DNA from: Celeribacter sp. PS-C1
Lineage (GTDB): Bacteria; Pseudomonadota; Alphaproteobacteria; Rhodobacterales; Rhodobacteraceae
Direction of reading: 5' to 3'
DNA: 42,721 nt
NCBI RefSeq assembly: GCF_019429625.1
Contig: NZ_JAHXRW010000017.1
Coordinates: 1 to 42,721, forward strand
Numbering within the stretch: position 1 is the stretch's first letter; the number at the start of each line of letters is the position of its first letter. This document shows, one piece after another, positions 10,200-15,368 of this stretch. A model generated the notes under the pieces. The model was given only the letters and a program-made list of their open reading frames with translations. It did no database searches and was not told the origin of the DNA. The position numbers and the translations under genes were made by a program.

Positions 10200-10274
<75 letters not shown>

Positions 10275-11713: not shown

Positions 11714-12466
11714 ATGGGGCCAAAGATCTTTACATATAGAGAGCTTATCCTGTCAGCGGTGGCAATCAACGTGGCTGTTTTGGTTGTCTTCGTATTTCTC
11801 TCCGTGCTGCAATTCGATCAGGTCCGCACAGGCTTGGAACAGGAGCGTCTGAAGGTCATCGCGGATCGTGTTTCTGAGCCATTGGGCTCTGCGGCGATGA
11901 TTGGTTTGGAACTCTCGACTGTCCGGAACCTTGATGCTGTCCTGGAGCGGGCGCGGCAGGCTGACGATGCAATCACCGCGCTGCATGTGCTTGATCGGAA
12001 TGGTGCGATTGTCAGAAGCACTTCAGGCAGTGTTCTTGACGCCGAAAGAGCTGAAATTGGTCAGCTTTTGGCAGAAGGGGCGTCCAGTGCGATTTACAAG
12101 GAACGTGGCGATTATCGGTATCTCGCGGCATTCAAGCAAAGTTCCGGAGACGTTGCCGGAGCTCTGATGATTGAATACTCCGGTGCAACCGCGACGACAG
12201 CCGTTTGGGCAATGGCGGGTCGACTTGCGACATGGGCGCTCGGCTTTTGTGTGATCAGTAGCGTGATCTCGGCCTGGATGGTCCGAAGTGTTTTCAAGCA
12301 CGAACTTCGCTTTGATCAAGAATTCCTAACGGCTGATTTTGAAGCGTCCCAACATTTGTGGCGTGGGGATACGATCAATCGAAAAGACGGGGGACATGAG
12401 GGGATCGCCTCGGCAATGCATGAGGCTGAATTGCAATACCTGAATGCGCGGGACGGCACGCGTTGA
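11714..12466 (+). CDS. Two-TM periplasmic sensor-like protein
   Basis: The 250-residue protein has TM1 at about residues 12-33, a periplasmic domain of about 130 residues, TM2 at about 166-188, and a cytoplasmic tail of about 60 residues that looks like a HAMP or signalling helix without any output domain. The periplasmic part (LEQERLKVIADRVSEPLGSA, later LHVLDRNGAIVRST) reads like a Cache/PAS-type ligand-binding domain. The next gene begins with a module of the same topology and a similar helix-strand pattern, so the two may be paralogous halves of a heterodimer. The start ATG has only a weak ribosome-binding site. The TGA stop overlaps the TTG start of the next gene, which implies coupling. 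Function inferred: sensing or regulating transport by the partner. Confidence 0.72.
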   Translation: MGPKIFTYRELILSAVAINVAVLVVFVFLSVLQFDQVRTGLEQERLKVIADRVSEPLGSAAMIGLELSTVRNLDAVLERARQADDAITALHVLDRNGAIVRSTSGSVLDAERAEIGQLLAEGASSAIYKERGDYRYLAAFKQSSGDVAGALMIEYSGATATTAVWAMAGRLATWALGFCVISSVISAWMVRSVFKHELRFDQEFLTADFEASQHLWRGDTINRKDGGHEGIASAMHEAELQYLNARDGTR

Positions 12467-14373
12467 GAAACCGTGGCGCCCCCTCACAAAAGACACTGCG
12501 TCTGCGTGTGACCTTGGCATTAACACTGGTTATTGCCTTTACCATCGCCAGCTTCTCGACCGTGGTCATTCGCGCCTACGACGATGCCATCGAGCCAGAG
12601 CTTCGGCAGAGGATGGATCTTCTTGGCACGATGTTGCGCGATGATCTCCAGAGAACGTTGGAGCTTGGTATTCCAATCGATGCGGTTGCGGGGTTTGACG
12701 AGAAAGTGGCTGAGACGGTGGCCGACTTCCCGGAGATCCGACGGGTGAAAATCGTCGCAAACAATCGTGAAGTTTTGCTCGATCTCGAAAATGGTGACGC
12801 GGGCGGCGGATTACAAAACGTTTTGGGGGCGCAGACTTGGACGAACACTTTTTCGGTCCTCGCCCGAAGCAGAATTGTTGCCGAAATCGAGTTGTCTGGT
12901 GACCCGCGCCAGATTGAAACCCGCTTACTGCGGGCGCTTTTGGATATCAGCGTGATTGCTCTTGCAATCATTTTCCTTGGTGTTGAGGTCATCCTAGCGC
13001 TCGCGGCGCGCAATATCTGGATTCCACGTTTGGCTGTCACAGGTCTATTGGAAGAACAACGCCGTGGCTGTTTTGATAAAGTGATCGATGTGCCCTCTGG
13101 AGGGCAGATGAGACGGCTCGCTGAGCGTCTGAACGACAGGGCGTTGCACCTTGCGCGGTTGAACTCACGGGAAAAGGCGGATCCGAGACGGTTCGAAATT
13201 TCTTTGCCCTTGTCCGGTCGCCTTCCCATGTTTCTCTTGGCCCTCGGGACAGAAACGACGGCCTCTTTCTTGCCGGTCATGGCCAGAAATGCGGAGCGGA
13301 TGGCCGCACTTCCCGGCGCGGTTGCGGCCGCACTCCCTCTGATCCTTTACCTCCTCGCAGCGGCGGTCTCTGCCCCTCTCGCGTCGCGCGTGATCACGCG
13401 GGTCGGGCCGCAGAAGGCGTTTTTCTGTGCCGTTCCCCCGATCATAACGGGCCTCGTCGTTATGTCCGTGTCTTCCGAGCTTGCCGGTATTGCATTCGGT
13501 CGGATGATCGTGGGGGCCGGATATACATTGGCGGCAGTTTCTTGTTCAGCATATATGTTGCGCGCTGGAGAGCACGGCGCCGCAGCGGAAACCCAAGCTT
13601 CCCTGAATACCGCACTATATGGTGGCGTTCTCGCAGGATCCGTGATTGGCGGCGTTATTGCATTTGAGGTCGGCTATTCCGCGGCGATTTTACTCGGCGC
13701 GGCTACAATAATCTGCGCGTGGTTTGCCGCGCGCTGGGGCCTGTCAGGTCCCGCCGGCGCTGTCAGGCACAGCAACAGGGCGGCAGGTGTTGAAAAGCAA
13801 TCTCCACTGTCGTTTTTCTTGACTGTGGCTTGCCTTGCCGTGCCAATGAGCGCGGCGACGGCCATTGTCGTCTGGTATCTCGTGCCGATGACCCTTTCAC
13901 AGCAAGGATATGAGACCACGATCATCGCGAGGATCGTGATGTTGTATTACCTATCAGCAATCTTGATCGCCCCTCTTGCCGGTTACCTTTCGAACGCCAT
14001 CGGTTTTAATGAAAGGCTCGCGGCCGTTATGGGAGCCATTTTGGCTGCGGTTGCGTTGCTCGGAGCAGGTTTTGCGTCTCTTGGACCAATTTTCGTCGTA
14101 GCGCTGCTTGGCTTTGGCCATGCCATTCTTCGCGCGCCCCTCTACGCACTTGTTGTCTTTTACTGCGGCCGAAAAGCGTCGTGGATCGCGGGATACCGGT
14201 TTGCTGAAAGACTTGGCGCAATTGTCGCCTTTGTCGCAATTTTCTTCGCCACTCCTGAAAATTCTGATCCATCCCTGATCTTTGCCTCTCTCGGCATCTT
14301 GTCGTTGTCCGGCGCGGTCATTTTCGGCATGATTTCATCAAGCAGAACGAAAAGAAGGGAGACGCCGGTATAA
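12463..14373 (+). CDS. Sensor-HAMP-like module fused to a 12-TM MFS transporter
   Basis: This 636-residue protein has two parts. Residues 1-240 look like a receptor: TM1 about 16-36, a periplasmic domain 37-155, TM2 157-181 and a HAMP-like linker to about 235. Residues 252-636 hold twelve hydrophobic segments and look like a complete major facilitator: motif A is visible between TM2 and TM3 of this half (SRVITRVGPQKAFF, 308-321) and a second copy between TM8 and TM9 (GYLSNAIGFNERLA). MFS proteins are secondary transporters, so a fused periplasmic sensor may gate transport, or the MFS part may act as a signalling output. Start: TTG at 12463 overlapping the previous stop (TTGA). Its TAA overlaps the next ATG (TAATG), so all three genes are coupled. 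No break in frame is visible, so this is not an assembly-type fusion. I do not know a described protein of this design. Confidence 0.78.
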   Translation: MRNRGAPSQKTLRLRVTLALTLVIAFTIASFSTVVIRAYDDAIEPELRQRMDLLGTMLRDDLQRTLELGIPIDAVAGFDEKVAETVADFPEIRRVKIVANNREVLLDLENGDAGGGLQNVLGAQTWTNTFSVLARSRIVAEIELSGDPRQIETRLLRALLDISVIALAIIFLGVEVILALAARNIWIPRLAVTGLLEEQRRGCFDKVIDVPSGGQMRRLAERLNDRALHLARLNSREKADPRRFEISLPLSGRLPMFLLALGTETTASFLPVMARNAERMAALPGAVAAALPLILYLLAAAVSAPLASRVITRVGPQKAFFCAVPPIITGLVVMSVSSELAGIAFGRMIVGAGYTLAAVSCSAYMLRAGEHGAAAETQASLNTALYGGVLAGSVIGGVIAFEVGYSAAILLGAATIICAWFAARWGLSGPAGAVRHSNRAAGVEKQSPLSFFLTVACLAVPMSAATAIVVWYLVPMTLSQQGYETTIIARIVMLYYLSAILIAPLAGYLSNAIGFNERLAAVMGAILAAVALLGAGFASLGPIFVVALLGFGHAILRAPLYALVVFYCGRKASWIAGYRFAERLGAIVAFVAIFFATPENSDPSLIFASLGILSLSGAVIFGMISSSRTKRRETPV

Positions 14374-15368
14374 TGGGTATCCGCACTTGCGTATTCGTTG
14401 CCTCGACCTGTCTGTTACTCGCCGCGCAAGCCGTCGCGAAAGATCAGACGGTTCTGTTTGCGACCTGGCGTGGCTGTGAGGAATCTTGCCAAGGCGTCAA
14501 AGACTATCTTGAGGAGGTTGCTCCGGATGTCAGGATATCAGTACGCGACGCTGGCCGCGACAAGGCGCGGTTAAAGGGGCTTGTCGAAGACGCGCGCGCG
14601 GAGGGTGTCGACCTCATCATATCGTGGGGAACGACTGTCACGCTCGCCACTGCCGGAACCCTTGCACAGCTAGAGGATGCGAATTTTAACCATGATATCC
14701 CTCAGGTCTTCATGATTGTCGCTGACCCGGTTGGATCTGGGATCGCCAAGAGCCTCGAAGACACTGGGCGCGAGAACTTGACCGGAACATATAACAGGGT
14801 GCCGGAAACAGTGACGGTGGACACTTTGCAGCGCTTTGTTCCGAATTTAAAGAAGCTCGGGCTTCTTTATAATGCGAACGAAAAGAACTCTGTCGGAAAG
14901 CGTGACGAATTGGCAGATCTTCTTCCCAGCATCGGGATCGAACTCGTCGACTATGGTTTCGAACTGTCCGAAAATGGAGCCCCCATGCCCGAGGACATCG
15001 GCGTCCATGTGAGGCGGTTAAAGCAAGCCGGTTCTGATGCGCTTTATGTTGGAAGTTCGTCCTTTCTTCGCTCGAATGCCGCGATACTCGGTGCCGCCGC
15101 CAAAGCTGAAAATCTGCCGGTCATAAGTTCATACGAAGAAATGGTTCAGGACGGGAACGCGCTGATATCGGTTGCAGCCCGCTATTACGACGTCGGGCGT
15201 CTTGCGGGCCGTCAGGTCGCGGACATACTCTTGGATGGGAAACTGCCCGGGGCGCTTCCTGTTGCAAAAATGGACGAATTTGCCCTGACGATAAACCTGA
15301 GTTTCGCCCGAGAGATCGGAGTTTGGCCTCCGGTTGATATGTTGGAATTCGCAGATGTGGTGGAATAG
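14373..15368 (+). CDS. Periplasmic binding protein, ABC_sub_bind type, without ABC partners
   Basis: The 331-residue protein has a signal peptide (about residues 1-22) and a two-lobed binding-protein pattern: VDLIISWGTTVTLATAGT, PQVFMIVADPVGSGIAKSLE and GSDALYVGSSSFLRSNAA match the ABC_sub_bind/TrpX-like family. Cys35 and Cys39 (RGCEESCQG) at the start of the mature protein may form a disulfide. In other bacteria, relatives feed an ABC permease and ATPase for aromatic or amino-acid-like ligands. Here neither is present; the gene overlaps the sensor-MFS gene by one base. A role as ligand receptor for the two sensor-like membrane proteins is inferred. Confidence 0.85.
   Translation: MGIRTCVFVASTCLLLAAQAVAKDQTVLFATWRGCEESCQGVKDYLEEVAPDVRISVRDAGRDKARLKGLVEDARAEGVDLIISWGTTVTLATAGTLAQLEDANFNHDIPQVFMIVADPVGSGIAKSLEDTGRENLTGTYNRVPETVTVDTLQRFVPNLKKLGLLYNANEKNSVGKRDELADLLPSIGIELVDYGFELSENGAPMPEDIGVHVRRLKQAGSDALYVGSSSFLRSNAAILGAAAKAENLPVISSYEEMVQDGNALISVAARYYDVGRLAGRQVADILLDGKLPGALPVAKMDEFALTINLSFAREIGVWPPVDMLEFADVVE

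Follow-up and report, generated by a model that had tools for sequence, protein, structure and literature searches.

Gene Organization of the Locus

The stretch of DNA analysed here (the window) comprises 42,721 nucleotides from Celeribacter sp. PS-C1 (NCBI RefSeq assembly GCF_019429625.1, contig NZ_JAHXRW010000017.1), and between positions 11,714 and 15,368 it carries three overlapping genes, which we call A, B, and C. These are predicted to encode a membrane protein with a periplasmic sensor-like module, a second protein that joins such a module to a carrier domain of the major facilitator superfamily (MFS), and a periplasmic binding protein, with the following features:

11714-12466, plus strand: gene A, 250 amino acids (aa); transmembrane (TM) segment (about residues 10-34), periplasmic Cache-like module, second TM segment (about 162-192), and short cytoplasmic tail, the TM limits being read from the sequence

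12463-14373, plus strand: gene B, 636 aa, TTG start; TM segment, Cache-like head, TM segment, HAMP-like linker, and MFS domain

12514-13002, plus strand: sensor module of B, with TM1 (residues 18-36), periplasmic head, and TM2 (162-180), placed by hydropathy, the structural model, and the sCache_3_2 matches of relatives

13003-13167, plus strand: HAMP-like linker of B (about residues 181-235), placed by the HAMP matches of relatives, conserved residues, and a helix in the model

13207-14355, plus strand: MFS domain of B (about residues 249-631), placed by MFS_1, the model, Foldseek, and conserved charges

14373-15368, plus strand: gene C, 331 aa periplasmic binding protein, its signal peptide read from the sequence

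14481-15356, plus strand: PF04392 domain of C, placed by Pfam

A preliminary description of this DNA had held that the three genes overlap at both junctions, that A has a TM-periplasmic-TM topology without an output domain, that B continues a module of the same topology into a 12-helix MFS domain, and that C is an ABC_sub_bind-type binding protein without an ABC partner, and all of this agrees with our results. The overlaps are of 4 bases between A and B (TTGA) and of 1 base between B and C (TAATG), and the gene order and overlaps recur in distant relatives. A has no Pfam match, the model of B shows twelve long MFS helices, and C matches PF04392 (ABC_sub_bind) with an E of 5.3e-32; no gene for an ABC permease or ATPase was found within the operon by open reading frames and Pfam. 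Above the Pfam cut-offs, only PF04392 and MFS_1 are matched by the three proteins, and none of them matches the TRAP or TTT families (DctP or TctC, DctQM or TctAB). Two features go beyond the earlier account, namely that the heads of A and B are related modules and that B bears a HAMP-like linker.

Protein B as a Putative Receptor Joined to a Carrier

For B of the window, Pfam reports MFS_1 alone (residues 257-589, E 6.6e-14, 52 bits against a cut-off of 33.4), a family that is matched in all 32 aligned B proteins. Hydropathy alone detects 10 of the 12 MFS helices. The model of B, built from 32 rows (mean pLDDT 86.2, pTM 0.83), consists, in order, of a helix at residues 9-67, representing TM1 and its extension into the periplasm, a small head, a second helix at 148-200 that corresponds to TM2, a linker helix at 215-234, and the MFS helices. 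The head is formed by one helix and four strands, which is compatible with a Cache fold. When the model was searched with Foldseek, the best 50 matches listed were all MFS carriers, as judged by their titles, with VMAT2 and others at the top (E about 3e-9).

The front end of B resembles that of a receptor. At E values of up to 1, sCache_3_2 is found in 11 of the 32 aligned B proteins (best E 8.6e-5) and HAMP in nine (best E 2.9e-5), both being weak matches and neither occurring in the window copy. In the linker, P188, G202, and F204 are conserved in 84-94% of the aligned proteins. There are also matches to two histidine-kinase models, in 14 and 15 of the 32 proteins, as would be expected if the front end of B were a receptor front end, and a phmmer search of this part against solved structures gave nothing useful. 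In the MFS domain, the conserved charges have been kept (R347 and R490 in 31 of 32 rows, E582 in all 32, and R579 and R583 in 30), and the domain is therefore probably a working carrier, to judge from its residues. When the two-module chains are included (37 rows), residue 582 is E in 23 rows and D in 12.

Protein A and Its Fusions to B

Among relatives of A, weak matches to a Cache family occur, as dCache_1 touches 14 of the 30 aligned A proteins at an E of up to 1 (best 8.1e-5). In the nine single-sensor rows listed, the B head is recognised by a profile built from A relatives (E 9e-10 to 9e-16, with one row at 2e-9). Conversely, the profile of the B head recognises the first module in fused chains, for instance those of L018, L019, and L021 (here and below, L numbers denote loci and G numbers genomes). 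On the evidence of these profiles, A is a second copy of the sensor module found in B.

In several loci (L018, L019, L021, L051, and L032), the A module is fused in front of B in one chain, and the 866-aa chain of L021 models as two heads and an MFS domain (pLDDT 88.7, pTM 0.87). There is also a shorter two-module subtype, mostly of about 810-900 aa. The two-module fold alignment contains 19 two-module and 18 single-sensor rows, with separate A rows left out because they aligned onto the B module. Before the MFS domain, 14 two-module chains of the shorter subtype have a linker of 17-46 residues and L021 has one of 24. All other rows (22 of the 37) have linkers of 67-105 residues (69-105 in the single-sensor rows and 67-104 in L018, L019, L051, and L032).

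Protein C and the PF04392 Family

C is the sole match in its own genome (99.96% complete) to either its own sequence or PF04392, and its solved relatives are 3lkv, 6hni, and 3lft (E 6e-18 to 1e-16). Members of PF04392 also serve as the binding proteins of TrpXYZ-type ABC importers, but in those systems a permease and an ATPase lie beside the binding protein. C has neither, and it scores 116 bits against the TrpX family NF041285 (tryptophan ABC transporter substrate-binding protein), whose cut-off is 390. Among PF04392 copies located away from B at 20 places, a permease with 6-9 TM segments adjoins the copy in seven (L125-L131) and an ATPase is present as well in five (L126, L128-L131), as judged by eye. 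The ten copies labelled as ABC-type (L122-L131) form one separate clade with a support of 100/98, the label having been assigned from the neighbours and being a guess for L122-L124; L011 and C fragments shorter than 180 residues were not included in the tree. We reject the idea that C is a stray ABC subunit given the lack of ABC genes in the operon, the low TrpX score, and the separate clade.

From the loci, 161 neighbours were picked, with nine loci skipped in the picking. A Pfam tally of 115 of these neighbours gave 99 families, and no ABC family is among the 25 commonest. One protein with ABC_membrane and ABC_tran adjoins the set in L016, and 5 of the 71 stretches contain a gene with an ATPase motif, never closer to B than 1.18 kb.

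C proteins of the window type favour W32, R33, G34, W85, S230, and F231, and the ABC-labelled copies favour H32, P33, no single residue at 34, I85, P88, Q91, N230, and T231. Since the favoured residues differ at so many sites, the ligand of C may well differ from that of TrpX, and we consider a TrpX-like ligand doubtful.

Conservation of the Gene Set and Correlation of the B and C Trees

One profile scan of genome contigs yielded 69 loci in Pseudomonadota, Thermodesulfobacteriota, and Myxococcota, and these, with the window and L010, make up 71 stretches with 74 B proteins. Near-identical loci, such as L041/L043 and L061/L063, were not merged, and the gene calls are mechanical open reading frames, so that several N-termini are over-extended (e.g., L029, L045, and L068). 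A separate A accompanies 42 of the B proteins, 27 are two-module chains by a lenient profile limit (E 0.01), and five are unassigned. C is present in the same stretch for 64 of the 74 and lies within 300 bp for 50, on the same strand in 49 of these 50.

Within the class of the window, 35 of 385 genomes have a match to the B profile at E 1e-20, in some cases over the MFS part alone. Adding G014 brings the genomes with such a match to 36. Together they hold 53 PF04392 matches, and 25 of the 36 have one of these no more than 3 kb away from B; in nine of the 11 others, only an iterated profile, which is a weaker test, found a C-like gene beside B. The remaining two (G091 and G375) showed no C-like gene beside B, and in both B is near a contig end. 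A phylum-wide search with the A4 alignment (32 of the 36 single-sensor rows, leaving out L043, L062, L072, and L075) at the strict limit of E 1e-60 found at least 9 of 398 genomes. Plasmids gave only distant matches (21-30% identity, 10 records). Among marine isolates, Thalassovita gelatinovora is one that carries the set.

The trees of B and C are correlated, with a Mantel r of 0.84 for 57 loci (those with a single B and a single C longer than 200 residues, L011 left out) and 0.87 for 30 single-sensor loci; in either case, none of 999 permutations was as high. Co-occurrence across genomes had been put forward as the way to examine the proposed association. In this respect the unit does recur, as seen in the 64 C neighbours, the A-B fusions, and the correlated trees, and B homologues with no C in view are few (10 of 74, four of them not near a stretch end). 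The association of a sensor pair, an MFS domain, and an orphan binding protein is strongly supported by co-occurrence, natural fusions, and tree correlation, and we regard it as well supported, from these comparisons, that A, B, and C form one conserved unit. The gene set is, judging from its spread over three phyla, old.

Signalling Genes Beside the Set

A gene for a SpoIIE phosphatase is present in 24 of the 71 stretches, beside 25 of the 74 B proteins, and no separate SpoIIE is in view for the other 49, which include that of the window. In L054, a metagenome contig, the MFS domain is fused in frame to dCache-HAMP-SpoIIE, so that this locus bears its own phosphatase, although a stop codon lost by sequencing error is possible. 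In L116 (11215-14873, G390), a second A-like gene and a 971-aa chain composed of a B-like sensor, HAMP, and SpoIIE adjoin the A-B-C set, an arrangement in which the sensor pair looks like a module that can be exchanged. A cyclase adjoins the set in L072 and a hybrid kinase in L032, and L139 and L141 have C with SpoIIE and no B-like gene within the fetched stretch. The window has no SpoIIE, cyclase, or kinase neighbour and no SpoIIE-fused chain; the one SpoIIE gene of its genome lies elsewhere.

A Possible Mechanism and Its Alternatives

We propose that the operon encodes a receptor-carrier coupled to a binding protein. C, by analogy with its family, would catch a small molecule in the periplasm. 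A and B would form a heterodimeric receptor by way of their Cache-like modules, for which the A-B fusions provide support, and loaded C would dock on this pair. The resulting change could then be transmitted along TM2 and any HAMP-like linker into the MFS domain of B, switching its transport state, and this domain would move a solute. In some relatives, an adjoining SpoIIE phosphatase, cyclase, or kinase could relay the same signal to the cell. We regard the case for loaded C docking on the A:B heads and switching the MFS domain of B as evenly balanced. Somewhat more tentatively, we suggest that this would be a new kind of binding-protein-dependent system, in which a heterodimeric Cache receptor reads the ligand state of C and gates a built-in MFS carrier, the same pair having been swapped onto SpoIIE in a related operon.

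Several observations weigh against this proposal. The heads of A and B in the window match no Cache or HAMP Pfam profile, and a linker of HAMP length cannot be essential, as it is missing in L021 and in the 14 chains of the shorter subtype. C is not always in view. Six of the ten B proteins without it are 0.2-1.6 kb from a stretch end (L044, L048, L057, L062, L070, and L076), but L031 (with two B genes), L074, and L075 are not near one. The C proteins linked to B do not form one clade but a clade of 18 (mostly of the shorter subtype), a clade of 43, and a pair of second copies in Corallococcus, such that the label needs four changes, at least three by well-supported branches, and the unlinked copies L139 and L140 fall within or touch the clade of 43. 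The correlation between the B and C trees is not corrected for species descent. Finally, MFS-only relatives without a sensor module (L112 and L113, 401 and 459 aa) adjoin a C-like gene, so that the sensors are not always needed.

This last observation is also an argument for binding-protein-dependent uptake, in which C would hand its ligand to the MFS domain of B with the A:B heads as a docking platform only, a further class beside ABC, TRAP, and TTT. That C usually lies beside B, with no ABC partner in the window, would fit such a function, as would the absence of the motif-C proline of antiporters from 28 of the 32 aligned B proteins. On the other hand, all 24 profile matches of B among solved structures are to NorA, VMAT/VAChT, EmrB, or SLC18B1, antiporter-type carriers that act as exporters and not importers, although the Foldseek matches are mixed, with VMAT and NorA ranking high and hexose importers present too. 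The SpoIIE genes in 24 of the 71 stretches also speak against plain uptake, and MFS carriers are not known to depend on a binding protein. We therefore consider uptake of this kind unlikely.

A second alternative is that the MFS domain has lost transport and now senses or relays the signal, SpoIIE, cyclase, or kinase partners providing the output, much as UhpC, an MFS protein, acts as the sensor for UhpB. The SpoIIE neighbours and the sensor pair placed on a phosphatase in L116 keep this receptor alternative in play, and the in-frame MFS-SpoIIE chain of L054, the cyclase and kinase neighbours, and the loci in which C stands with SpoIIE and no B-like gene point in the same direction. However, most B proteins, that of the window included, have no separate SpoIIE in view, and the charged residues of the MFS domain have been kept, so that a pure receptor appears quite improbable.

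We give slightly less weight still to a ligand-sensing exporter, in which C and the A:B pair would sense a compound outside the inner membrane and turn on efflux through the MFS domain. The antiporter-type profile matches and the high rank of VMAT and NorA by fold would agree with this role, but the missing motif-C proline argues against it, and the NCBIfam matches of B proteins mix exporters with symporters. Lastly, that unrelated neighbours were joined by chance or general operon packing, as the sporadic occurrence of the operon in the genus of the window (2 of 20 genomes) near a tRNA-Thr gene and an integrase-like fragment might suggest, is very hard to reconcile with an order, overlap, fusion, and B/C tree correlation conserved across three phyla, and we reject it.

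Other Genes Around the Set

The tRNA-Thr gene (10200-10274) lies in the segment 10200-10656 of the window. Twenty-five bases separate it from a 118-aa reading frame that bears DUF6538, a domain of integrase N-termini; a PHROGs scan of this fragment gave no match. This pair, which lies about 1 kb upstream of the operon, looks like a genomic-island scar. In a relative of the same genus (L008, 11409-14508, G014), a gene set judged by eye to be of the TRAP type, comprising two membrane proteins and a separate binding protein, is found about 2 kb past gene A.

VgrG-like genes, of type VI secretion, occur near the set or its relatives in L033 (3112-11377), L037, L010, L023, L027, L029, L053, and L059, with a Pfam check in L033 only, where ImpA is directly 3′ of C. 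These neighbours suggest a link to secretion control. The shorter two-module subtype is found with a GCS2-type ligase gene in 11 loci by clustering (L010, L040, L048, L054, L055, L060, L061, L063, L064, L067, and L069) and in 13 by phmmer, which adds L071 and L074, and Pfam confirms GCS2 in L064. A DapF-like epimerase adjoins the set in seven loci (L042, L056, L057, L062, L066, L070, and L073), five of which (six by phmmer) also have a protein of about 530-560 aa in complete copies, that of L056 having no Pfam match. In rhizobia, a membrane protein of 690-710 aa lies between C and SpoIIE (L053, 10081-12168, and also L023, L027, L029, and L059). Visual inspection suggests that it consists of two sensor modules and a further multi-TM domain; the L053 copy has no Pfam match.

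Relation to Known Systems and Significance

The proposed arrangement shares elements with several known systems. As in TRAP and TTT transporters, a soluble periplasmic binding protein would be coupled to a non-ABC carrier, but here the carrier is an MFS protein, the binding protein belongs to PF04392, and receptor-like modules are present. The predicted TM-head-TM-HAMP-like layout of B resembles that of Cache-HAMP receptors, such as chemoreceptors, histidine kinases, and SpoIIE phosphatases, but in B a 12-helix carrier takes the place of the output module, and the receptor would consist of an A:B heterodimer. UhpC, too, is an MFS protein that acts as a sensor, but it is not known to have a binding protein or a Cache module. 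In PMC9602780, loaded binding proteins are described as stimulating receptors of many types, and ABC, TRAP, and TTT are given as examples of transporters that use binding proteins. The nearest described fusions of a carrier to signalling machinery that we found are the SLC5/STAC histidine kinases (CbrA, CrbS, and RpuS; PMC9100948). In these, the SLC5 symporter is N-terminal to the kinase, whereas in B the sensor is N-terminal to the MFS domain and a binding protein is added. No paper among the matches listed from the open-licence PMC literature describes a binding protein with an MFS carrier of this kind.

If the proposed mechanism is correct, an MFS-based system with a receptor between the binding protein and the carrier would add a new kind beside ABC, TRAP, and TTT. 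It would also illustrate how a carrier comes to be gated by a receptor module, and it would offer a way to study how a single binding protein serves both transport and signalling. In Marinobacter pelagius, the set has a two-gene form, consisting of the L021 chain and its C, which makes the system directly testable.

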